From the IMG/VR virus record IMGVR_UViG_3300034196_000113, positions 1-59,045 of that record: a DNA stretch of 59,045 nucleotides; one strand, written 5' to 3'. The position numbers and the translations under genes were made by a program. Position 1 is the stretch's first letter, and each line of letters begins with the position of its first letter. This document shows positions 3,415-59,045 of this stretch, one piece after another. The notes beneath the pieces are model-generated. The model made no database searches. It was not told the DNA's origin and was given only the letters and a program-made list of their open reading frames with translations. This stretch comes from a virus.

Positions 3415-3876
3415 TCAGTGGCGAACGAGGCTGAGCAAATTGGCGATGCAGCGCAGGCCGGCGGCGCGTTGCTCGGGGGTGCGTCGCGAGTAGCCGGCGA
3501 TGGTCAGTCCGCGGTTGCGGGCCCGCTGGTCGTCGGGGTGGGACAGGGCGCAGGCGGTACGGAATTCGGCGATGCTCGGTGGCCAGGGGCAGGTTGCGCG
3601 GCAGATCGACAGTCCGCGGGCGATTTCCTCTGGCGTGGCGCCGGCCAGTCCCTCGGCCCATTCGAGTGCAAGCACTTCGGTCGCAAAGCCGGCAATGTTC
3701 TTTTCCCATTTCACGCCCCAGATCATGGCGAAATGCTCTAAGAGCAGGGCGATCTCGGATTCAAAATGGAAGTTTGCCGCCGGGGAAGAGGCTCTTAAGG
3801 TGCTCGAATTTAAGTCGGTGTTGTTCTTTTCGCTGTTCGTTGAGAGTGAATGCGTCTGGGGTGTGGGCTGTGCCAT
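3415..3876 (-). CDS. Replication protein P-like (helicase-loader position)
   Basis: About 153 residues from the ATG at 3876, preceded by GGTGGAAAG seven bases away; a GTG at 3888 is an alternative. The middle reads HFAMIWGVKWEKNIAG..ALEWAEGLAGATPEEIARGL, then WPPSIAEFRTAC. This is the layout of phage replication proteins of the lambda P/DnaT group that recruit the host DnaB helicase. The 5' end overlaps the O-like gene by 116 bases; both frames look coding there. Its position immediately after an O-like initiator supports the call. Confidence 0.65.
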   Translation of the reverse strand: MAQPTPQTHSLSTNSEKNNTDLNSSTLRASSPAANFHFESEIALLLEHFAMIWGVKWEKNIAGFATEVLALEWAEGLAGATPEEIARGLSICRATCPWPPSIAEFRTACALSHPDDQRARNRGLTIAGYSRRTPEQRAAGLRCIANLLSLVRH

Positions 3877-4972
3877 TGGTCTTTCCACCGGGGTTGCTAT
3901 TGAGCGGCGTGTCGAGCTGACCGATGTAGTTTTCGCAATTGCTGGATCGGAATAGCGTGGCGGGTCGCAGGTATTGCCGCATGGCGTCGTCCGATCCCCA
4001 TTCCGCCGTCTTGCGGTCGATGACCCGTAACAGTTCCGACTTACCGTAATCCAGGATGCGCGCTTTGGCTAGGGCGGCGCCAGCCGTCGCCTTGCCGGTG
4101 TTCGTGCGGCTGCGGAAGGCGGTTCCGGCTTTCGCGTTGAGGTAATCGTACACATCGTCCACATCGTGCATCGTCGGGCTACTGCCCGACAAATGTGGAG
4201 GTTGCGGTTGGTGTTCGGGGATCGGCGCGGGGGGGGACAGGGGGAGGTCTTTTTGTTTACCTTCTTTGTTTATGTCTAATGATCGCGCGCGCGAGGCAAG
4301 CGTGTCCGAGCAATCTTTGACCACTTCGGGGGCAAAATCGGGGGCGAAAGGGGCGGGGGGGGTGCAATGGGTTGCATCGGGGGAAGTCCGGGGGGTGCAA
4401 CCGGTTGCATCGGGGAATCCCCGGGGGGTGCAACCGGTTGCATCGGGGAATCCCCGGGGGTGCAACTGGTTGCATCGGGCAATCTCCCAGGTGGGTGGTG
4501 GATTGGATGGCTCAGGCGCCGCATTATTGTTCATAAGCACCGGCCCTATTCGGATCGTGGTCGCGTAATCATACACAGCCCAGCTACTCTTGGGTTCGGG
4601 AACGGATGAAGGAGGGGGATTGGACGGGCGTCGAGCGCTATCGCCCCGTGTTCTTTCACGTAGTTTCTTATCCGACAATCGGTCGGTCGCCGGGGCTATA
4701 TCCCCGACCGCAAGACGGTAAACCGGGGCCCTTCCAGGCGTGCGCTCCAACGTCAATAAACCCCCCGTTTCCAGGCTTAGAATGCAGTACCGGATGGCGC
4801 GCTTCGTCAGTCCGATGTCCCGCTCCAGCCGTTTCATATTCGGCACGGCAATGTGATCCCCGGTGTTGTCGTCACCCCGGCTCGCCTGTCTGGCGAGCGA
4901 CACGAGGATAAATTTCGCGCTTGGATTCGCAATCTCTTGGCCATAAGCCCAGTTCATCGCCGCATCGCTCAT
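3761..4972 (-). CDS. Replication initiator O-like, wHTH plus phage C-terminal domain
   Basis: A 403-residue protein. Residues about 1-95 form a helix-turn-helix region (ERDIGLTKRAIRYCILSLE, then GGLLTLERTPGR). A Pro-rich linker holds three 10-11-residue repeats of the type GFPDATGCTP plus diverged copies (about 165-200). The C-terminus (about 275-355) has VYDYLNAKAGTAFRS, VIDRKTAEW and MRQYLRPATLF, the conserved phage replication C-terminal domain (Phg_2220_C type). It binds the origin and recruits the P-like protein in comparable phages. The repeated linker is encoded by DNA iterons inside the gene, as in lambda O. It starts 9 bases after the upstream stop. Confidence 0.75.
   Translation of the reverse strand: MSDAAMNWAYGQEIANPSAKFILVSLARQASRGDDNTGDHIAVPNMKRLERDIGLTKRAIRYCILSLETGGLLTLERTPGRAPVYRLAVGDIAPATDRLSDKKLRERTRGDSARRPSNPPPSSVPEPKSSWAVYDYATTIRIGPVLMNNNAAPEPSNPPPTWEIARCNQLHPRGFPDATGCTPRGFPDATGCTPRTSPDATHCTPPAPFAPDFAPEVVKDCSDTLASRARSLDINKEGKQKDLPLSPPAPIPEHQPQPPHLSGSSPTMHDVDDVYDYLNAKAGTAFRSRTNTGKATAGAALAKARILDYGKSELLRVIDRKTAEWGSDDAMRQYLRPATLFRSSNCENYIGQLDTPLNSNPGGKTNGTAHTPDAFTLNEQRKEQHRLKFEHLKSLFPGGKLPF
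4363..4480. repeat. Four origin-like iterons inside the O-like gene
   Basis: Palindromic cores occur at 4363-4376, 4396-4409, 4429-4442 and 4461-4474, spaced 33, 33 and 32 bases apart. The two central cores are the perfect palindrome TGCAACCGGTTGCA; the outer two each carry small changes. They are joined by GC-rich linkers (CGGGGAATCCCC). An AT-rich stretch (4250-4285) lies beside them. Four palindromic iterons in the middle of an O-type gene beside an AT-rich segment is the arrangement of the lambda origin, so this is probably the lytic origin. Confidence 0.75.
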
Positions 4973-6227: not shown

Positions 6228-6343
6228 GTGGACAAATCTCCTGTTCAAAGTGGACAAATCTCCTGTTCAAAGTGGACAAATCTCCTGTTCTATGTGACAT
6301 TATTTGAGCGTGTCCCTGTGGATAACTTTTAGCCTGCGGATAA
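6228..6343 (+). other. Plasmid-type origin: three 22-bp iterons and DnaA boxes
   Basis: Three tandem copies of GTGGACAAATCTCCTGTTC start at 6228, 6250 and 6272 (22-bp period, one turn-multiple apart). A perfect DnaA box in reverse orientation, TGTGGATAA, lies at 6317-6325, and a one-mismatch copy, TGCGGATAA, lies at 6335-6343, just before the rep start codon. Iterons plus DnaA boxes directly upstream of a Rep_3 gene define a theta-type plasmid origin, and usually also the site of Rep autoregulation. Confidence 0.85.
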
Positions 6344-6345
6344 CC

Positions 6346-7224
6346 ATGACTCCTGCCGATAGCTCGCTCGTCACTCAAGCAAACCAAGTTGTTGAATCGT
6401 CTTACAAATTGACGCTGGCCGAGAAGCGCCTAATCCTCGTCGTGTTGACGAAGATCGACAGCCACCCCGACAAGCCCGCGGCACGGCCGGAAACGCTGAT
6501 CGAGATCGACGCAAGCGAGGTATCGGCGCATTTGCACCTGCCGCAGAGCGAGGCATATTTGATGCTCAAGGAAGCCGCGGATCGTCTGGCCGAGCGCTGG
6601 ATCATTATCGACCGGCCCCACCCCAGGAAGCCGAAGATGAAGCAGACCAAGACCCGTTGGGTGTCGGCGATTTCCTACATACCGGACGAAGGCAAGGTGC
6701 TTCTGCGCTTAGCCGAGGACGTGCTTCCGTATCTCACGCATCTGGCCGGCGAGTTTGTCCGCTACAGCATCGACCAAGTCGCCGATATGTCGTCGGTTTA
6801 CGCGATCCGGTTCTATGAGTTGCTGTTGCAATGGCTGGGGGAAGGTCAACGCGACGTTCCGCTTGACTGGCTGCGGGAAAAATTCGCGCTTCCCGATTCC
6901 TATAGCAACATTCGCGACTTGAAGCGCCGGGTTGTCGATCCTGCCGTAGAGCAGATCAACCTACATAGCAACCTCGAGGTTTCCTACGTACAGCGCAAGC
7001 GCGGGCGAATCGTGCAGTCGTTTCTTTTCACGTTCGGTGTCAAACAAGAACCCAAGCCGGCGCCCGCCGCCAAGCGTTCTCCCCGCACCAACAAGAAGGC
7101 GGAAACAGAAGCCCGGATAACCGCCGCGGCCAAGCCCGGCGAAACCCGCGAGCAGGTAATAGATCGGCTGGAACAGCTCCGCAAGCTCAAGGACGCCGTG
7201 AACGCCCCGGCGCCTAAGCCTTGA
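6346..7224 (+). CDS. rep: Plasmid replication initiator, Rep_3 family
   Basis: 292 residues from the ATG at 6346; an upstream TTG would include the DnaA boxes, so I reject it. The N-terminal winged-helix region has the family pattern VVESSYKLTLAEKRLILVVL, then LIEIDASEVSAHL. The second winged helix has VYAIRFYELLLQW, WLREKFALPDSYSNIRDLKRRVVDPAVEQIN. The C-terminal 60 residues are basic and Ala/Pro/Lys-rich. Rep_3 proteins bind iterons and load host replication proteins; those iterons lie directly upstream. This gene is the clearest sign that the phage can live as a plasmid. Confidence 0.9.
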   Translation: MTPADSSLVTQANQVVESSYKLTLAEKRLILVVLTKIDSHPDKPAARPETLIEIDASEVSAHLHLPQSEAYLMLKEAADRLAERWIIIDRPHPRKPKMKQTKTRWVSAISYIPDEGKVLLRLAEDVLPYLTHLAGEFVRYSIDQVADMSSVYAIRFYELLLQWLGEGQRDVPLDWLREKFALPDSYSNIRDLKRRVVDPAVEQINLHSNLEVSYVQRKRGRIVQSFLFTFGVKQEPKPAPAAKRSPRTNKKAETEARITAAAKPGETREQVIDRLEQLRKLKDAVNAPAPKP

Positions 7225-8849: not shown

Positions 8850-9846
8850 TCAACACGGGAACCGTGCCGGATATGCGAAGCCTGGGGTAACGTGGGATCT
8901 GTGTCAACAGTGCGAAGTCGGGCAAAGGGCGAGAACCGTTTCGGAAGTGCGAAGCCGTTGTCAGAGTGTGGACCGCGCCATCTGCGCGAAGTCGGGCGAA
9001 TTGCGAGTACCGAATCAGAAGTGCAAGCCGCCATGTCAACGAGAACCGTGGAAGACAAGCGATCAGTCGAGTTGTGGGCGAGAACCGCGCGCGAAGTGCG
9101 ATAGCCGGGTTCCGCGTATGAAGCGCGCCCGAAATGCGATAGTCGAGAAATCCGCGAGAAACCGTGCGTTTAGTGCGATAGTCGAGAAGTCAGCGGGAAC
9201 CGTGCGGGGGTGCGATGAACGAGCCGAAAAGCCGGCGAGAACCTAAGACCAAATGCGAGTCGTGAAGCCGATGTGAATCGGTATAGTTGTGCGACAATCC
9301 GTAAATATAGCGAGAACCGCATCTTGAGTGAGAAGCCATGAAATTGGCGTGAACCGGAGAAGTTGTGCGATAGCCGCAAAGTATGCGAGAACCGGAAGGC
9401 CGACGCGATAGCCGGGCGGATGCGAGATACCGCAGTCGAGGTGCGAGAAGCCGTGAAGTAGGTCAGAACCGGAAAACGAACGCGATAGCCGTTCCGTCTG
9501 TGGGAACTGTACGTGCGGTGCGATAGCCGCGTAGATCGCTAGAACCGAAGCAAGCGCGCATTAGGTCAATAGCCGTATGAAATGTGAAAACCGGGCCGCG
9601 CGTGCGACGAGCCGACAGACTAGCAAGAACCGAAAACGATGCGCGATCAGCCGCTTGTCCAGCCTGAACCGTATGAAGAATGCGACCAGCCGCAATGCTG
9701 ACGAGAGCCGCGAACCCTGCGCGAGAAGCCGCTAAGAAAGAGTGAACCGTGCCGTCAATGCGATCAGTCGTAATTGACGTGAGAACCGTACAACCTGCGC
9801 GCGAAGCCGCAACATGAGTCTGAACCGTGACAATAAAGCGAGAGCA
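8850..9846 (+). repeat. TIGR-like array, segment 2 (about 25 units)
   Basis: Same architecture as segment 1, running from the stop of the small gene to the leader of the Tas-like gene. Typical units around 9375: motif A GCGATAGCCG, 8 variable bases, motif B GCGAGAACCG, 10 variable bases, next A. The last unit runs into the leader of the following gene. Motif A varies at two internal positions (GATAG, GAGAAG, GACCAG, GATCAG); motif B often keeps only GAACCG. Variable segments are all different. Confidence 0.85.
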
Positions 9847-9853
9847 ACAAACA

Positions 9854-11044
9854 ATGAATGAAGCAAGTGCGATACCGAGCGACGACAGCGAAAAAGACGG
9901 CAAGAAGTTCAAGAAGAAAGAACTCAAGGAGCAGTTGGCCAAGAAGGCAAAGGAGATCAAAGAGCAGACCAAGGAAATGCTGGAGCAGGAGAAGCCGCCC
10001 GAACAGTTGCAGCCGATGATCCGGCTGAACAAAGACGGGGTTGCCGCCCTGTTGGCCGGGCAATCCGGGGGGCCGATGCCGTCGGCGGGGGTTGCCGGGG
10101 CGTCGAATATCTCCGAGGCGCGCATCCTGGTCGATCTGTATTACGCGATGCAGGAGTACCGCAAGGGCTTCGACAATCAGGTGGGGGCCATCGAGCGGGG
10201 GGCCGATCAGGCGACCACGCACGTCAGCGCAGACTTCATCGGCACCCAAATCGACGTGCTGGAGAGCAACGCCAAGCTGTTCCTCGAGGTGTTCGCGTCC
10301 TCGCATCCCATGTGGGGCTGGTTTAAGGCCGTGCATGGGATCGGTCCCGTGCTCGCCGCCGGGCTCATTGCCCACTTCGGAAGCCGCGCCCTCCCGCCCA
10401 CGGTGGGCCATTGGTGGCGATTCGCAGGCCTCGATCCCAGCCAACGATGGTTGAAAGCCGATGCGCTGTCCGACCTGTGGAACGAGCAGGAAGGCGACAT
10501 CGACCAGCGGACCCGCAACGTCGCGGCCATTGTGGGCCGCTCGCCCGACACGGTGATTCGGGATGCGACCGTCGATTTTAAGACCGGGGAGACCAAGCCG
10601 CTGACCCGGGCGGGAGCGCTCAAATCGTTGGCGCGGATTCCGTTCAATCGGCCATTGAAGACCCTTTGTTGGAAGGTCGGAGATCAATTCGTGAAGCTGG
10701 GGGCCAGAGAGGACGCCTTTTATGCTCGGTATTACCGCAACCGCAAAGCCCAAGAGATCGCCCGCAATGAGGCCGGCGAGCGTGCCGCATTGGCTGCGAA
10801 GACCTTATCTGAAAAACCGAGCCATGCGCAACGGGCGACCTATGCGGACGGGCGCTTACCGGACGGGCGGGTAGACTTAATGGCGAGACGGGCGACCGTC
10901 AAGTTGTTTCTCTCTCATTTGCATGAAGTGTGGTGGAGGGTCGAGCATGACGGAGAAATGCCGCCGAAGCCATTCTCTGTAAGCATTCAGGGTCATGCAC
11001 ATTACATACCGCCACCACACTTGGATGCCGTAGGGCTGGAATAG
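9854..11044 (+). CDS. Tas-like protein: Nop/IS110 C-terminal-type domain, no nuclease
   Basis: 396 residues from the ATG at 9854; the GTG at 9827 lies in array sequence. Residues 14-48 are a Lys/Glu-rich coiled coil. The core has KAVHGIGPVLAAGLIAHFG (159-176), GHWWRFAGLDPSQ (185-197), then after an approximately 60-residue insertion PFNRPLKTLCWKVGDQFVK (263-281) and YARYYRNRKAQEIARNEAGE (290-309). The end has VKLFLSHLHEVWW and HAHYIPPP. This is the C-terminal (Transposase_20) module of IS110 transposases, equivalent in fold to the Nop domain of box C/D proteins. There is no DEDD/RuvC or HNH domain, so it is not an intact transposase. A Nop/IS110-like protein embedded in a two-spacer array matches TIGR-Tas, in its nuclease-free form. 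Expected role: binding array RNAs and, through them, DNA. Confidence 0.8.
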   Translation: MNEASAIPSDDSEKDGKKFKKKELKEQLAKKAKEIKEQTKEMLEQEKPPEQLQPMIRLNKDGVAALLAGQSGGPMPSAGVAGASNISEARILVDLYYAMQEYRKGFDNQVGAIERGADQATTHVSADFIGTQIDVLESNAKLFLEVFASSHPMWGWFKAVHGIGPVLAAGLIAHFGSRALPPTVGHWWRFAGLDPSQRWLKADALSDLWNEQEGDIDQRTRNVAAIVGRSPDTVIRDATVDFKTGETKPLTRAGALKSLARIPFNRPLKTLCWKVGDQFVKLGAREDAFYARYYRNRKAQEIARNEAGERAALAAKTLSEKPSHAQRATYADGRLPDGRVDLMARRATVKLFLSHLHEVWWRVEHDGEMPPKPFSVSIQGHAHYIPPPHLDAVGLE

Positions 11045-11049
11045 AGAGT

Positions 11050-12826
11050 CGTACAGCGCGCGAGAATCGACGCCAGAGTGCGAGCCTGGCGAGAGGTCTG
11101 AACCGAATCGAACGCGCGACAAGTCGAGTAGTACGCGAGAACCGTATGCCAAGCGCGAGAAGCCTGGATTTTGGCGAGAACCGTACCAAGCACGCGATAG
11201 CCGTCTTGGAGGCGAGAACCTGACAAATAGTGCGATAAGTCGGGCCTTTTGTGGGAACCGTATAAACGGCGCGACCAGCCGCAGCTCCAACAAGAACCGT
11301 CCCGCCCGTGCGATAGCCGTGGGATCTATGTGAACCGGGCGAAAGGAGCGACAAGCCGAATTCCAGGCGTGAACCGAATGCGAAGCGCGACAAGTCGTGA
11401 ATACTGCGTGAGCCGTACAAGAGGCGCGACCAGTCGAAAACCAAACGTGAACCGAAACCGATACGCGATTAGCCGTATTGGCTGTGGGAATCTACACCGT
11501 GGCGCGATAGCCGGGCCTTTGGCGAGAACCGTATTCGCAACGCGAGAAGCCGCACAGTTCGCGTGAACCCCTTGTCTGGTGCGACAAGCCGTGAAGCTAG
11601 TGAGAACCGAACACTGAGTGCGAGAAGCCGTGAAGCGTGCGAGAACCGTCAATCTAACGCGAGAAGCCGTGAACCGTGAGTGAATCGTCACGCGAACGCG
11701 ATAAGTCGAGCAGGCGACGAGAACCGAGTAGCGGACGCGATAGCCGTGATAAAAGCGGAGAACCCGAACACCAAACGCGATAGCCGCGGACTCGGCGTGA
11801 ACCGAGCAGTTCGCGCGATGAATGATCCGGGATGAAGGCGAGTACCGTTGAGGTAGCGACCAGCCGTGAAAGCCAAGAGAACCGTCGCGGATATGCGAGA
11901 AGCCGCGAAGAAGACGTGAACCGAAAGCGTAGTGCGAGAAGCCGCGAAGAAGACGTGAACCTAAGGCGTAGTGCGATAAGCCTCACGTATACGAGAACCG
12001 TGGAGGCGTGCGATGAAAGAGCCGTGAATTACGTTAGAATCGTAGCCGTCGCGCGATGAGTCGAGAAAATAGCGAAAACCGTTTCTAGAGTGCGATGAGT
12101 CCAGAAAAGAGTGAGAAACCGCCGGAATAGTGCGATCCGCGCCAAACGCGAAAGCCGGGCCTAGTGTGAATAGCCCGTAGAGATATGAGAAACCGAGAGA
12201 ATTGAGCGAGTCTTGAGGGTACACGAAGCGAACTACGCGTGCGATAAGCCGGAAGTAAAGCCAGAACCGATTCTCGCGTGCGACCAGCCGTGGGAGTAAG
12301 TGTAACCGTCGGGCCGGCGCGACCAGCCGTTAATCAGGTGGGAACCGTCTATAAAGTGCGAGAAGCCGCGGATCGTGTTTGAACCGACTGGGCCATGCGA
12401 GAAGCCGCGCGGTTCGCGAGAACCGAAATGAAGGCGCGACAAGCCGACGAACTAACACGAACCGTTATCGGGGTGCGACCAGCCAATTGAACTGGCGAGA
12501 ACCGCGTGGGTGATGCGAGAAGCCGTGACAGGCATTTGAACCGTGTAGGTAATGCGACCAGCCGCCTAACTGGCGAGAACCGTAAGAAAAACGCGACCAG
12601 CCGTGTCTAATGAGTGAATCGTGCCGATGGTGCGAGAAGCCTTCAACCCAGTGTGAATCGGAAGAACTGTGCGACCAGCCGTCAGTTCAGCGAGAATCTG
12701 AGTTGGAGTGCGATAAGCCGGCAGACAGAGCGAACCGGAATAAGGAGCGAAGCCGTATGATCACGCGTGCCGACCCAAAGCGCGATCAGTCGAGATAGCC
12801 AAGAGAACCGGTGAAGTCGCGCGATG
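11050..12826 (+). repeat. TIGR-like array, segment 3 (about 45 units)
   Basis: The longest segment. I counted about 45 copies of motif A (consensus GCGANNAGCCG) alternating with motif B (consensus GNGAGAACCG). In the clean part (11100-11690) the B-to-A segment is exactly 10 bases in 14 consecutive units, and the A-to-B segment is 8 (or 9 when B begins CGTGAACC), giving a 39-base period, or 38 when A is one base short. Units at 11895 and 11934 are near-identical, showing tandem duplication. Units around 12060-12240 are degenerate. All are in plus orientation. Confidence 0.9.
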
Positions 12827-47723: not shown

Positions 47724-48328
47724 ACGAGCATGGCCCCGTAGTGGGTCATGTCGTCCAAATTCCCCGTGTAGTACCCGTGCCACCAGGCAATGCCGTAGCC
47801 CGCGGCCCCGACGATCTCCCCGAGTTTCTGCTGGCAGAATTCCAGGTAGTGGGCCCGCACTTTGTCGTTGCCCCACTGGGCCGCGGCTTTCTTGGTCGAG
47901 CCCACCTTCCAGGCGCCCTTGACGCGCGCGTTCTGCCTCAAGCCGTCGTTCACGGCGAGGACCATCCGCGGGGCGAGAAGGCGACGGGCTTTGAAGAACC
48001 CCTCAATGGTGGGCCAGGGCTCGCCGAAGGGATCAACGTCCAGGACTTCCACCGTGGAGGTCCGAAAGAGCCCCGCCCCGAGCATCGCTTCCGCCTTGCC
48101 CTCGTAGATCGCCCAGGTCGGGCGCTGGCGTGCCAGAAACTCGGCTTTGTCCGGGTCTTTCTCGATAGCGCCGCCCGGGAAGCCGCTATACAGCCGCTTC
48201 CAGATTTCCCCGCGTCCGCCATGCGTCTCCAGGACGAACGGCTTAGCGATTCCCAGCCGCTCCAGCAAGTTCCGCCGCAACGCGATCTTCTCCGCCCCGG
48301 TCGAGTTGACTTGCCGAATCACGGTCAT
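47693..48328 (-). CDS. SAM methyltransferase-like protein, Trm1-type motif
   Basis: 211 residues from the ATG at 48328. FVLETHGGRGEIWKRLYSGF is a motif I region, GGAIEKDPDKAEFLARQRPT a motif II/III region, and VEVLDVDPFGEPWPTIEGFF contains D-P-F-G-x-P, as in Trm1 tRNA guanine methyltransferases. Substrate not determinable: tRNA, DNA or other. It is encoded with, and overlaps by 86 bases, a ParB-like gene. Such pairs occur in phages and integrative elements. Confidence 0.6.
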   Translation of the reverse strand: MTVIRQVNSTGAEKIALRRNLLERLGIAKPFVLETHGGRGEIWKRLYSGFPGGAIEKDPDKAEFLARQRPTWAIYEGKAEAMLGAGLFRTSTVEVLDVDPFGEPWPTIEGFFKARRLLAPRMVLAVNDGLRQNARVKGAWKVGSTKKAAAQWGNDKVRAHYLEFCQQKLGEIVGAAGYGIAWWHGYYTGNLDDMTHYGAMLVQGGGTAPFS

Positions 48329-49040
48329 TGGAATCGACTCCCTGCCATTGCAGATAGACGCGGGCAAGCTCCTGGATCGCCTCTGCCCGATTGATCTTGC
48401 CGGTTGCGGCAATCGCCCGCTCGACCAGCTCGGCCTCGTCGATCAGGTACACGGCTTTGATAACAACCTTGCGCTCGCTGAACGACTTTTGAACCGAGTC
48501 GAAGTTGGTCTTGTCGCGGCCCACGTATTGCGCGGCCAGTTCCAGGGCTTCGCGCGCCTGCGCCTCCAGGTCGTCGAACAGGCCGACCATCGCATCGCTG
48601 CCGGCGGGCCCGTCGTGGCGAATCTCGTTCAGGTTGCGCTGGACCGCGGAATAGTCCGCTTCCGATAGCGCCGTGAGGGCATCGTGCGAGGCCAGGGCGA
48701 TGCGCTCTTCGTCGTCGGTCAGCGTCAGGGGCTCGACCGGAACCTTCTCCCCCGCCGCCTTGGACAGCATCGTTCGCAGATGCCCGTCGATGATGAGGTC
48801 GTGCCGGCCGGTGCGCCGGCTCACCTTCACCCGATCCGTCCAACCCAGCTCGGAGAGCACGCCCCGCATGATCGCTCGCTGGTGCTCCGGGTGGATCCGC
48901 CAGTTATCCGGATGGGCCAGGAGCGTGTCCGGATCGACCCATTCGACCTTGCTCGGATCGGCGAACTTGGAGCGGAAAGCCCCGCGGGGGCCGGTGGATT
49001 GCGCCGCCGGAGGGCGCCGTTTGCTTGGTATGTCGCTCAT
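48243..49040 (-). CDS. ParB-like N-terminal domain protein
   Basis: A 265-residue protein. Residues 30-95 have the ParB/Srx fold pattern: LLAHPDNWRIHPEHQRAIMR, GVLSELGWTDRVKV, HDLIIDGHLRTML. The rest is helical. No ParA is present, so classical partition is doubtful. Similar stand-alone proteins in phages sit next to methyltransferases. A TACAAT box five bases before the start may be its -10. It reads away from the structured RNA region. Confidence 0.7.
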   Translation of the reverse strand: MSDIPSKRRPPAAQSTGPRGAFRSKFADPSKVEWVDPDTLLAHPDNWRIHPEHQRAIMRGVLSELGWTDRVKVSRRTGRHDLIIDGHLRTMLSKAAGEKVPVEPLTLTDDEERIALASHDALTALSEADYSAVQRNLNEIRHDGPAGSDAMVGLFDDLEAQAREALELAAQYVGRDKTNFDSVQKSFSERKVVIKAVYLIDEAELVERAIAATGKINRAEAIQELARVYLQWQGVDSNDRDSASQLDRGGEDRVAAELAGAAGNR

Positions 49041-49135
49041 GCGGTCATTGTAGCAGGGATTTTCCGGCGAATAGGTTGTTTCAAAAACCGTCGGATTTTA
49101 ATTATTGGAAAGACCCAAAAACGCGTGCGATATCA

Positions 49136-49165
49136 TTGACGCATGGGAAAATTTTACCGTACTAT
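49136..49165 (+). promoter_or_regulatory. Promoter in front of structured RNA region
   Basis: TTGACG (49136-49141), 18 bases, TACTAT (49160-49165). This is the best sigma-70-type match I see in the region, and a second TTGACA begins at 49165. It would start transcription at about 49172 into 560 bases of gene-free, hairpin-rich sequence and then the MoxR operon. Confidence 0.6.
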
Positions 49166-49171
49166 TGACAC

Positions 49172-49735
49172 TCGGGATTCCCCTGTACACCGGATGTATC
49201 GGACGCCCGAATCGCTCGGGATCGCCTATCTAAGGATAGGGACGCGATCCGACCGGATAACGCAACCTGCGACCGCTCACGCGATGCCAGGATGCTAAAC
49301 CGGACCCGTACCGCGCGGAATTGCGACCGGATCGGACCTTGCGCAGTGAGAGCAAGCGCAGGCAAAGAGACCGACTCGCAATGGCTCAAGGGGAAGCACG
49401 AGGCTTCCGGAGCAACGACTTTACCGCAGTGTCGCTCGATGGTCGGACATGACTTCCCACCCCATCGAGTTTCATTCGGACCCTGATAGCTTGGGGAAAG
49501 GACAAAAGCTAGACCGGCCTAACCCGCATCCTTGGGGCCTTAAACCGTAAATCGTAGGATGCAAGGGAGACACGCGAACCTATCGGTTCCTGGAGTCTCC
49601 CGCCCGCCCTTGGTGCTGCGCCGTAGCTTCACCGGGGAACGCGGGAGTAATCGGGTCTCCCTCTGAATGAAAGGCCCGATGCGAAACCCGATGGGTTTCG
49701 TTCTGCGTATTCGGTCGAATGCGCAGAATAAAGAC
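49172..49735 (+). ncRNA. Candidate large structured RNA (~560 nt)
   Basis: No credible gene, but many long perfect stems: GGATCG/CGATCC enclosing CCTATC/GATAGG (49219-49250); GGAAGC/GCTTCC (49392-49408); CTCGATGG/CCATCGAG (49435-49469); TAGCTT/AAGCTA (49487-49511); GCATCC/GGATGC (49526-49562); GGGAGAC/GTCTCCC enclosing GAACC/GGTTC (49565-49601); ATCGGG/CCCGAT (49650-49680); CGAAACCC/GGGTTTCG (49682-49700); CTGCG-t-ATTCG/CGAAT-g-CGCAG (49703-49726). Size and phage location recall large ornate RNAs such as GOLLD and ROOL, but I cannot assign it to either. It could also be an elaborate leader of the downstream operon. Confidence 0.65.
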
Positions 49736-49761
49736 CATCATTCCGAGTTGCGAGATCATTC

Positions 49762-50784
49762 ATGGACAATTTGAGCAATTGCGTCACCACGGTCAAGCCT
49801 TCTTATGCCGCGATGTCGATAGAGTGCTTTTTGAGGGCGCGGACCCCCGTTTTTCTGTGGGGCCCCCCGGGTATTGGGAAATCGGACGTGGTCCGTCAGG
49901 TCGCCAAGCGCGCCGGCAGGACCGTGATCGACATTCGGGCCGTGCAGTTCGACCCGGTCGATCTGCGGGGCATTCCTGCCCGCGACAAGCGGGGCTATAC
50001 CGTCTGGTCGATCCCGGATCTGTTGCCGCGCGAAGACAGGGACGGCCCCGAGGGCATCCTGTTTCTGGACGAGCTGACTTCGGCCTCGCTGTCCATGCAG
50101 GCAGCGTGCTACCAGCTCGTACTGGATCGCAAGCTCGGGGATTACGTCCTGCCCGACGGCTGGGACATTATCGGCGCCGGGAACCGGGAGACCGACCGGG
50201 GCGTGACGATTCGGATGCCCACCCCGCTGGCGAATCGGTTCGGTCACCTGGACGTGGCGACCGATTTGAAGGACTGGTGCCGCTGGGCGAATAAGAAGGG
50301 CATCGAGCCCGAGATTATCGCGTTCCTGCGCTTCCGGCCGGAGCTTCTGCACGCGTTCGACCCCCGCTCCGGCGAGAAGGCGTTTCCGACGCCCCGGTCT
50401 TGGGAAATGACCAGTCGGACCTTCGCCGCCGATGTCCCGCTGGCCGTGCAGATGCCCGTCTATGCCGGGCTGGTCGGACAGGCCGCGGCTATCGAACTGA
50501 CCGGGTTCCTGCGGATCTGGGCAACCCTGCCGTCGATTGACGGCATCTTGATGAATCCCCAGACCGCGCCGGTCCCGACCGAAAGCTCGGCCCTGTTCGC
50601 CGTCACTGCCGCGCTTGCCAAGCGGGCCGACGATGCGAACTTCCCCCGGGTGTGGACCTATGCGAAGCGCCTGCCCCCCGAGTACACCGTTCTTCTTATG
50701 AGCGATGCCACCCGACGCAATTCGGCGTTGGAGCAAACCAAATCGTTCGTCGAGTTCGGTAGCGAATACGCGGACGTGCTATGA
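49762..50784 (+). CDS. MoxR-type AAA+ ATPase
   Basis: A 340-residue protein. Walker A GPPGIGKS (34-41), Walker B ILFLDE (99-104), sensor region IIGAGNRETDRGV, and arginine-finger region LANRFGHLDV. MoxR ATPases remodel partner proteins together with VWA-domain proteins; such a partner lies at 53249. The leader has GCGAGA six bases before the start. It is the first gene after the structured RNA region and its stop overlaps the next start. Confidence 0.85.
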   Translation: MDNLSNCVTTVKPSYAAMSIECFLRARTPVFLWGPPGIGKSDVVRQVAKRAGRTVIDIRAVQFDPVDLRGIPARDKRGYTVWSIPDLLPREDRDGPEGILFLDELTSASLSMQAACYQLVLDRKLGDYVLPDGWDIIGAGNRETDRGVTIRMPTPLANRFGHLDVATDLKDWCRWANKKGIEPEIIAFLRFRPELLHAFDPRSGEKAFPTPRSWEMTSRTFAADVPLAVQMPVYAGLVGQAAAIELTGFLRIWATLPSIDGILMNPQTAPVPTESSALFAVTAALAKRADDANFPRVWTYAKRLPPEYTVLLMSDATRRNSALEQTKSFVEFGSEYADVL

Positions 50785-52838: not shown

Positions 52839-53246
52839 ATGTCGGCTTTTCTCTGCTCGCCGCAGCATATTGCTGCAATCGTTTGCTTCGGCCCGATTAC
52901 CGACGACTACGGCCACTATTCCGTTGGCCCCTTGCCCGAGGAAGTCGCCGAACTGTTGGCCCGCGAAAACGTAAAGAGCGTGGACTATCGCTATCCGCGC
53001 GATATCGACGAGCAAGTCAACGAGGTATTCGTTAAAGAGTGCATCGCCGCGGCAAAGATACTCAACAAGAAAAGACCGAACGTCTATACCGCGGTGCAGG
53101 TTATCAAACTCTGCAATTCGCTGGACTACCAGTCTTGCGAGCATCCCGGCTGGGAAGCGTCGAATGCGAAGGAGACGCTTGACGCCATAGTCGCTATCGC
53201 AATCAGGAACCTGCCCGGTTACGAAGCCGCCGAGTGGAGCATTTAG
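52839..53246 (+). CDS. Conserved phage protein, unknown
   Basis: A 135-residue protein with AGGAG upstream. The C-terminal half has KLCNSLDYQSCEHPGWEASN, a signature I recognise from a widespread phage and mobile-element family without known function. The 3' end overlaps nothing; the VWA gene follows immediately. Confidence 0.65.
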   Translation: MSAFLCSPQHIAAIVCFGPITDDYGHYSVGPLPEEVAELLARENVKSVDYRYPRDIDEQVNEVFVKECIAAAKILNKKRPNVYTAVQVIKLCNSLDYQSCEHPGWEASNAKETLDAIVAIAIRNLPGYEAAEWSI

Positions 53247-53248
53247 CA

Positions 53249-54742
53249 ATGAAGTCCGACGAACCGAGTAGGTCTCTGAACAGGATGGAGATCGCGCGCA
53301 TCGCGATGGTCCTGGAAGCGCCGTTTTTCGGGGCGCTTGCACTCAAGCTGAAACTGACCGAAGCCCCGTGGCTTCCGTATGCGATGGCCGTTGACGGAGT
53401 GCATCTGTACTATCACAAAGATCGCATTTTAGCGATTAACATGGGCCAGCTAAAAGGAATGATCTGCCATGAGACGCTGCATGTGGCCTTGGGCCACCCG
53501 TGGCGCGCGAAGGGCCGCGATCCCGACCGGTGGAATGTGGCGGCTGACTATGTGATTAACCCGATGGTGATATCGGCCGGCATGGAGTTGGCCGACGGGA
53601 TGCTCTTCGCGCCCGAATTCGACGGGCTTCCGTCGGAAACCGTCTATGCTCGGCTGGGGAAGAAGGACGGCGACCCGAACGCATCGGCGCCCCCCGAGGA
53701 AGAGCAGGGCGAAGAAGGGGAGGAACAAGGCGATGGCCAGGGAGAAGGCGAAGGGGAAGAGGAAGGCGAGGGAGAGCAGGAAGGGGAGCAGGAGGGCGAG
53801 GGAGAAGGGGACGGCGAGGGAGAGGGAGAGGGCGACGGAGACGCCGACCTGGAAAGCCAAGGAGAGGGCTCGGGCGAGGGAGAGGGCGGGGGAGAAGGGG
53901 ACGGTCAGGGAGACGGGGACGGGGACGGTGGAGAGGGAGAGGGAGAGGGCCAGGGAGACAGCCAGGGCGACGGACATGCGCCCTCCCCTACCGCGACCAC
54001 GCCCGACGGTCGCCCGCTACCCAGCCCGGAAGCGGCCGGGTCCGGGGCCGTCCTGGAGCCCCCTCCGGACGAGAACGGCAACCCCCAGAGCGATTCCGAC
54101 GCAACCGAACAGGAAGCGGAATGGAAGATGGCGGTTGCCCAAGCCGCCCAGCTCGCCCGCGCCGCCGGCAAGCTGCCCGGTTTCATGGAAGAGATCCTGA
54201 AAGACGATCTGGCCCCAAAGGCACCTTGGCAACAACTGTTGCGCCAGTACATGAACAGCTATGCCAAGGACGACTATACGTGGCAGAAACCCAACAGGCG
54301 CCATGTGGCGAACGGGCTATACCTGCCGAGCATCCGATCCGAAACGGTCGGGACCATCGCGCTCTTTTTCGACACGTCGGGATCGATCGATAGCGTCATG
54401 CTCGCCCAGTTCGTGGCCGAAGTGAATTCGATCCTCGAGGACATCAAGCCCGAACGACTCCTGTTGATCCAGGTAGACACCCAGGTCAACGAGGTCCAGG
54501 ACTTGTCCTACGACGATTTGCCCTTCGAGTTCACGGCCAAGGGCCGCGGGGGTACGTACTTCCAACCGGCATTCGACTGGATCGAAGAGCAGGAGATCGA
54601 ACCGGTGTGCGCGGTGTACCTCACCGACATGGCGCCGGGCGACGTTCCCCGAGATCCGGGGTATCCGGTGCTGTGGGTGGACTTCGCCGCCTACGATTGG
54701 CTTCCCGACATGCCGTTCGGCGAACGGATCTACATTCAATAG
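53249..54742 (+). CDS. HExxH / VWA-domain protein (MoxR partner)
   Basis: 497 residues from the ATG at 53249. Residues 71-83 read MICHETLHVALGH, a zinc-metallopeptidase HExxH motif of the DUF2201 N-terminal type. A 90-residue tract of Gly/Glu/Asp/Gln (about 150-240) links it to a C-terminal VWA-like domain with the metal-site motif FFDTSGSID (about 372-380) and RGGTYFQPAFDWI. Proteins with this layout pair with MoxR ATPases, as encoded at 49762. The cellular target is unknown. Confidence 0.8.
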   Translation: MKSDEPSRSLNRMEIARIAMVLEAPFFGALALKLKLTEAPWLPYAMAVDGVHLYYHKDRILAINMGQLKGMICHETLHVALGHPWRAKGRDPDRWNVAADYVINPMVISAGMELADGMLFAPEFDGLPSETVYARLGKKDGDPNASAPPEEEQGEEGEEQGDGQGEGEGEEEGEGEQEGEQEGEGEGDGEGEGEGDGDADLESQGEGSGEGEGGGEGDGQGDGDGDGGEGEGEGQGDSQGDGHAPSPTATTPDGRPLPSPEAAGSGAVLEPPPDENGNPQSDSDATEQEAEWKMAVAQAAQLARAAGKLPGFMEEILKDDLAPKAPWQQLLRQYMNSYAKDDYTWQKPNRRHVANGLYLPSIRSETVGTIALFFDTSGSIDSVMLAQFVAEVNSILEDIKPERLLLIQVDTQVNEVQDLSYDDLPFEFTAKGRGGTYFQPAFDWIEEQEIEPVCAVYLTDMAPGDVPRDPGYPVLWVDFAAYDWLPDMPFGERIYIQ

Positions 54743-58932: not shown

Positions 58933-59045
58933 CATTGCCTATCCATTGCCTATCCATTGCCCCGTCATTGCCCCGTCATTGCCCCATGCTATTCAATAGA
59001 ACGCGCGGTTTGTATTCTATTCCCTGCCCCCTGCCCCCTGCCCCC
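58933..59045. repeat. Right-end tandem repeats and inverted repeat
   Basis: Five 11-bp units starting CATTGCC at 58933, 58944, 58955, 58966 and 58977 (two variants, ending TATC or CCGT). Then AATAGAA (58995-59001) and its inverse TTCTATT (59015-59021), then CTGCCCC repeated to the window end. As at the left end, the window stops within a repeat. Confidence 0.85.

Follow-up and report, generated by a model that had tools for sequence, protein, structure and literature searches.

A stretch between two divergent operons of an IMG/VR virus record very probably encodes a real, conserved structured RNA, judging from its sequence and from that of a homologue in a second phage. The window that we analyzed is the whole 59,045-base record. 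The RNA combines a variable 5′ domain with a conserved 3′ domain made up of helices P1 to P6 (Table 1). Its position suggests that it likely heads the rightward MoxR/VWA operon as an untranslated 5′ leader. It is an uncatalogued structured RNA of a recognized kind, either a large structured phage RNA or an operon leader, and is neither GOLLD nor ROOL.

The leftward operon runs from the ParB-like gene into terminase, portal, head, and tail genes, while the rightward operon encodes the MoxR-type ATPase, a DUF2201/VWA protein that is likely the MoxR partner, and a RusA-like resolvase. PHROGs labels the DUF2201/VWA protein an HNH endonuclease (phrog_1314), and the same product name is found in phage records; Pfam assigns it as DUF2201 metallopeptidase-like plus VWA-like, and the PHROG name looks wrong. 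Within the gap there are just two open reading frames (ORFs) of at least 60 amino acids, one of 75 amino acids on the − strand, with no PHROG match, and one of 64 amino acids on the + strand. Neither is conserved in the relative described below. The initial annotation had described the region as free of genes, and this holds for the gap between the ParB-like (−) and MoxR (+) genes.

One genuine homologue was found, on IMG/VR contig IMGVR_UViG_3300034159_000035 (the relative), which was reached by a terminase search. The two terminases are 72% identical and the coding DNA is about 73% identical; the MoxR proteins (62%) and ParB-like proteins (54%) flank the same kind of gap. The relative's RNA is syntenic: it has the ParB-like gene on one side and the MoxR operon on the other, and it was placed at 6246 to 6025 on the strand that reads toward MoxR. 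Sequence at 6254 to 6020 of the contig matches 49512 to 49736 of the window with 69% identity (blastn E value, 8e-28), and two blocks, 85% over 72 nt and 97% over 32 nt, exceed most of the surrounding coding DNA. No reading frame is conserved through this alignment, which contains frame-breaking gaps of 10, 1, 9, and 1 bases. The relative's RNA is shorter as a whole (about 440 to 480 nt), with a 5′ domain that is largely different.

The pairwise alignment of the 3′ domain gave a consensus fold of −73 kcal/mol versus −42 kcal/mol for column-shuffled alignments (z, −7.0; 0/300), and a z of −2.6 on the reverse strand. Across the 52 pairs of P1 to P6, 97% of cells pair, as opposed to 40 to 48% when the partner is slid by 1 to 3 columns. 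Likewise, seven pairs are doubly changed, against 0 to 2 in the slid structures. The G-U pairs in P2, P3, and P6 are possible on the + strand only. P4 of the relative (GAUCGG/CCGAUC) was paired by hand, the MAFFT register being one base off. P5 and the lower stem of P6 are uninformative on pairing because neither varies; their complete conservation suggests a sequence-specific role. P5 and P6 are each present in a single copy in the window. In both phages, CCCCA (near 49460 in the window) could form a pseudoknot with UGGGG in the P1 loop, a match short enough to arise by chance. The initial annotation had proposed a structured noncoding RNA and had named covariation in homologues and a stable transcript as the two things to look for; the first is answered by a homologue with compensatory changes, which now supports the proposal well. 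The family as known here comprises these two phage sequences, too few to judge covariation at the level of a family.

Table 1. Features of the gene-free region and its flanks, in window coordinates
Feature	Position	Strand	Description
ParB-like protein	48243-49040	−	First gene of the divergent leftward operon
Intergenic gap	49041-49761		721 bases; without genes, separates two divergent operons
σ70-like promoter	49136-49165	+	TTGACG-18-TACTAT; consensus match only; predicted start near 49172
Variable 5′ domain	49172-49511	+	About 340 nt; as a whole does not align with the relative
5′ hairpin A	49338-49362	+	CUUGCGC / GCGCAGG, loop AGUGAGAGCAA; counterpart in the relative
5′ hairpin B	49392-49408	+	GGAAGC / GCUUCC; counterpart in the relative
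Conserved 3′ domain, P1-P6	49512-49736	+	About 225 nt; from blastn, alifold, and covariance model
P1	49526-49562	+	GCAUCCU / AGGAUGC; nearly invariant 23-nt loop (UGGGGC..UAAACCGU.AAUCG)
P2	49565-49601	+	GGGAGAC / GUCUCCC; three doubly changed pairs
P3	49603-49645	+	Invariant outer CCCGC / GCGGG; two doubly changed pairs in inner UUGGUG / CACCGG
P4	49650-49680	+	AUCGGG / CCCGAU; loop length differs in the relative
P5	49682-49700	+	CGAAACCC-GAU-GGGUUUCG; identical in both phages
P6	49701-49728	+	UUCUGC... / ...GCAGAA; invariant lower stem; compensated upper stem with two doubly changed pairs
MoxR-type AAA ATPase	49762-50784	+	First gene past the RNA; start codon lies 33 nt beyond P6
DUF2201_N metallopeptidase-like plus VWA-like protein	53234-54742	+	Same direction as the RNA

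Most of the 5′ domain (49315 to 49511) has 42% identity to the relative and an alifold z of −0.1. Within it, hairpins A and B occur in the same order in both phages. The counterpart of hairpin A, at 6422 to 6401 of IMGVR_UViG_3300034159_000035, pairs GGUGC with GCACC around the loop AGUAGAAGAGAU; two doubly changed pairs emerge from hand pairing, the MAFFT alignment here not being clean. Hairpin B is matched by GGUAGC/GCUACC at 6359 to 6341 of the relative, within a conserved CAAGGGG...CAAC, and has one A-U to U-A compensation. These compensating changes were read by eye, and support for the 5′ hairpins appears weaker than that for the 3′ domain.

Folding of the single sequence at 49172 to 49735 gave −233.9 kcal/mol on the + strand (z, −4.37), with 0 of 100 shuffles equaling it. 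Against shuffled sequence the + strand z was about −4.2 to −4.4, and the − strand reached −3.23. For 40 control stretches of the same length from this genome, the mean z was −0.26 (standard deviation, 1.4). Because one of these controls reached −4.7, the z-score alone is strong and unusual but not unique. The excess stability is concentrated in the 3′ part (z, −5.0 for 49512 to 49736 versus −1.8 for 49172 to 49511). The many stems reported by the initial annotation are borne out by these values, and those that it named were placed correctly: 49565 to 49601 is P2, with its nested inner hairpin, and 49682 to 49728 holds the tandem hairpins P5 and P6.

The promoter had been called good. A promoter-like site is indeed present and matches the consensus at 9 of 12 positions, but with about 0.4 such sites expected by chance, the adjective is a slight overstatement. 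The relative's copy also has an upstream promoter-like sequence, TTGACT-17-GATAAT. At the other end, scans of the window and the relative gave no terminator-like site after P6 on the RNA's own strand, and a stricter scan gave no intrinsic terminator between 49.7 and 59 kb, Rho sites being invisible to such scans. The spacing from P6 to the next start codon is 33 nt in the window and 34 nt in the relative, though the gene that begins there is not the same: it is MoxR in the window, whereas the relative has a small ORF, with MoxR about 1.4 kb further on. In both phages a start codon lies this close to P6 and no terminator intervenes, so we consider a leader position likely, with the transcript probably running on into the operon. 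A discrete RNA of about 560 nt, as originally proposed, would go beyond the comparative support, which covers the 3′ 225 nt or so and two 5′ hairpins, and no terminator ends the RNA.

A covariance model built from the two copies (R1) scored its own sources at 271 and 250 bits. When run over 15 further records, comprising five others and ten phages whose tail, terminase, or ParB-like genes are related, it found no copy and one P6-like scrap of 7 bits. Scanning IMG/VR and GTDB genomes with exact patterns from the two sequences gave no true further copy, which is a weak test of absence. One conserved-loop pattern match sits within a coding frame and was rejected as chance, as was an intergenic match in Xanthocytophaga that has one 22-nt block in common only. 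A blastn search of the RNA against phage and plasmid collections returned nothing. Another record encodes a MoxR that is 55% identical and has no RNA, which implies that the RNA is no fixed partner of MoxR. Neither copy matched the Rfam 15 families at the gathering score. The GOLLD covariance model (RF02032) had no match at E values up to 10 in the window or the relative, and the same was true of ROOL (RF03087) in a direct search run without a positive control.

Several other systems were considered and rejected. A retron or DGR template RNA was dismissed, there being no reverse transcriptase (PF00078) in the window record. For a Ro60/Y-RNA system, the record has no TROVE protein (PF05731), and the operon's VWA protein belongs to another family. 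The downstream PHROGs label of HNH endonuclease had prompted us to consider IscB and omega-RNA, but Pfam gives DUF2201/VWA for that protein. A telomere site was rejected as well: protelomerase is absent from both records, while VP882 and phiHAP-1 score in the same search.

Elsewhere in the window, three perfect 22-bp iterons (6228 to 6290) lie directly upstream of a gene for a Rep3-family plasmid replication initiator (6304 to 7224), which raises the possibility that the virus is a phage-plasmid. There is also a second initiator gene, which is O-like (3761 to 4972); the 33-bp palindromic tandem repeats that it holds at 4357 to 4497 have the look of a second origin. Imperfect tandem repeats of 39 bp, with related units (GCGAGAAGCCG...), form several arrays at 11620 to 12583, and a transposase-like protein (phrog_4285) with no Pfam match is encoded at 9827 to 11044. 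The ends of the record (1 to 173 and 58933 to 59045) carry short perfect or near-perfect tandem repeats, with a 58-bp unit on the left and 11-bp and 7-bp units on the right. These are possibly ends at which repeats limited the assembly.

As a working model, the structured RNA would be transcribed rightward from the promoter listed in Table 1 and would form the 5′ leader of the MoxR/VWA operon. The 3′ domain would fold during transcription and act in cis on the operon. It may bind RNA polymerase or a protein and so control elongation or processing at the operon head, in the manner of HK022 put or of other long phage leaders; a cis leader could also affect translation of the operon. We hold this cis-acting mechanism, which draws on analogy, as a tentative preference. 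In the predicted fold, the window's ribosome-binding region is left uncovered by P1 to P6, and the strict scan found no downstream intrinsic terminator that an antiterminator would have to pass, so that no specific cis mechanism gains positive support. The difference in first gene between the two phages also speaks against the cis reading.

A realistic but somewhat less favored possibility is a trans-acting RNA of the GOLLD, ROOL, or ICP1 type, processed from the leader or terminated within it and forming a stable particle or RNP of 500 to 560 nt during infection. The length, the phage setting, the nearly invariant loops, and the GOLLD-like arrangement of a conserved 3′ and a variable 5′ part (PMC12286853) all fit such an RNA, and the ORF-less transcript of about 800 nt in ICP1 is a precedent (PMC7567579). 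Against it, the 3′ end has no terminator or known processing site, the start codon spacing is kept, and the copy in the relative is shorter and largely different in its 5′ domain. The cis reading is put slightly ahead on account of the continuous leader position, in what is nearly a tie.

It is improbable that the RNA resembles phage P4 CI or P1/P7 C4 in serving as a leader for lysogeny or immunity and in being processed into an antisense RNA that shuts off the operon carrying it. P4 and P1 immunity RNAs, at about 70 to 80 nt, are far smaller than the conserved domain here, and no immunity gene was identified in the genome. Consistent with such a leader are the long untranslated region in a divergent control region and the Rep3 initiator with its iterons; PMC7567579 cites antisense RNAs of this kind from phages and satellites. 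Much the same surroundings, with divergent promoters, a ParB-like neighbor, and near-perfect palindromes in P5 and P6, would suit a DNA-level element (an operator array or a partition, telomere, or recombination site) whose inverted repeats merely resemble RNA stems. We consider this highly improbable, as the conserved structure is strand biased and uses G-U pairs, P5 and P6 each occur once in the window, and neither record encodes a protelomerase.

Few families of large structured phage RNA are known, and such RNAs rank with the least understood in nature. We consider it unlikely that the RNA represents a new large trans-acting phage family that has no sequence relationship to GOLLD or ROOL, couples an invariant 3′ core to a swappable 5′ domain, and works with or alongside the MoxR/VWA machinery encoded by the operon behind it. 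If this were true, one more unrelated family that shares the layout, yet heads an operon instead of neighboring tRNAs, would help to tell the common traits of these RNAs from the accidental ones, and the 225-nt core with its one operon would be a compact test case for function.

In GOLLD, the 3′ region is conserved and the 5′ region less so (PMC12286853). The window RNA is likewise a large structured phage RNA with a conserved 3′ and a variable 5′ part, an analogy of layout and not of sequence. It differs from GOLLD in matching no model and in being shorter than the 800-nt class, and whereas GOLLD often neighbors tRNA genes, ARAGORN found none in the 59-kb window. A 14-mer RNA cage is a further trait of GOLLD. 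With ROOL it shares the size class, the phage setting, and the many helices, but it has neither a model match nor a tRNA island. The initial annotation had likened the RNA to these two families and called for an Rfam comparison; this was run for GOLLD and ROOL, and neither matches, so the RNA is not placed in either and the likeness is one of analogy.

The most abundant transcript of ICP1, an RNA of about 800 nt, comes from a gap that has neither ORFs nor a nearby tRNA (PMC7567579). The predicted window RNA resembles it in being long, in lying ahead of a gene cluster in a gap without ORFs, and in having no tRNA. For the cis reading, the closest comparison is the HK022 put RNA, a phage leader that acts on RNA polymerase without a dedicated protein (PMC9378689). 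There, an antiterminator made of tandem stem-loops, located early in the transcript of a phage operon (PMC9378689), acts on the β′ zinc domain of RNA polymerase; P5 and P6, also tandem hairpins, resemble it in layout. While put is about 70 nt with two stem-loops, the window RNA is a far larger domain that ends in two invariant hairpins.
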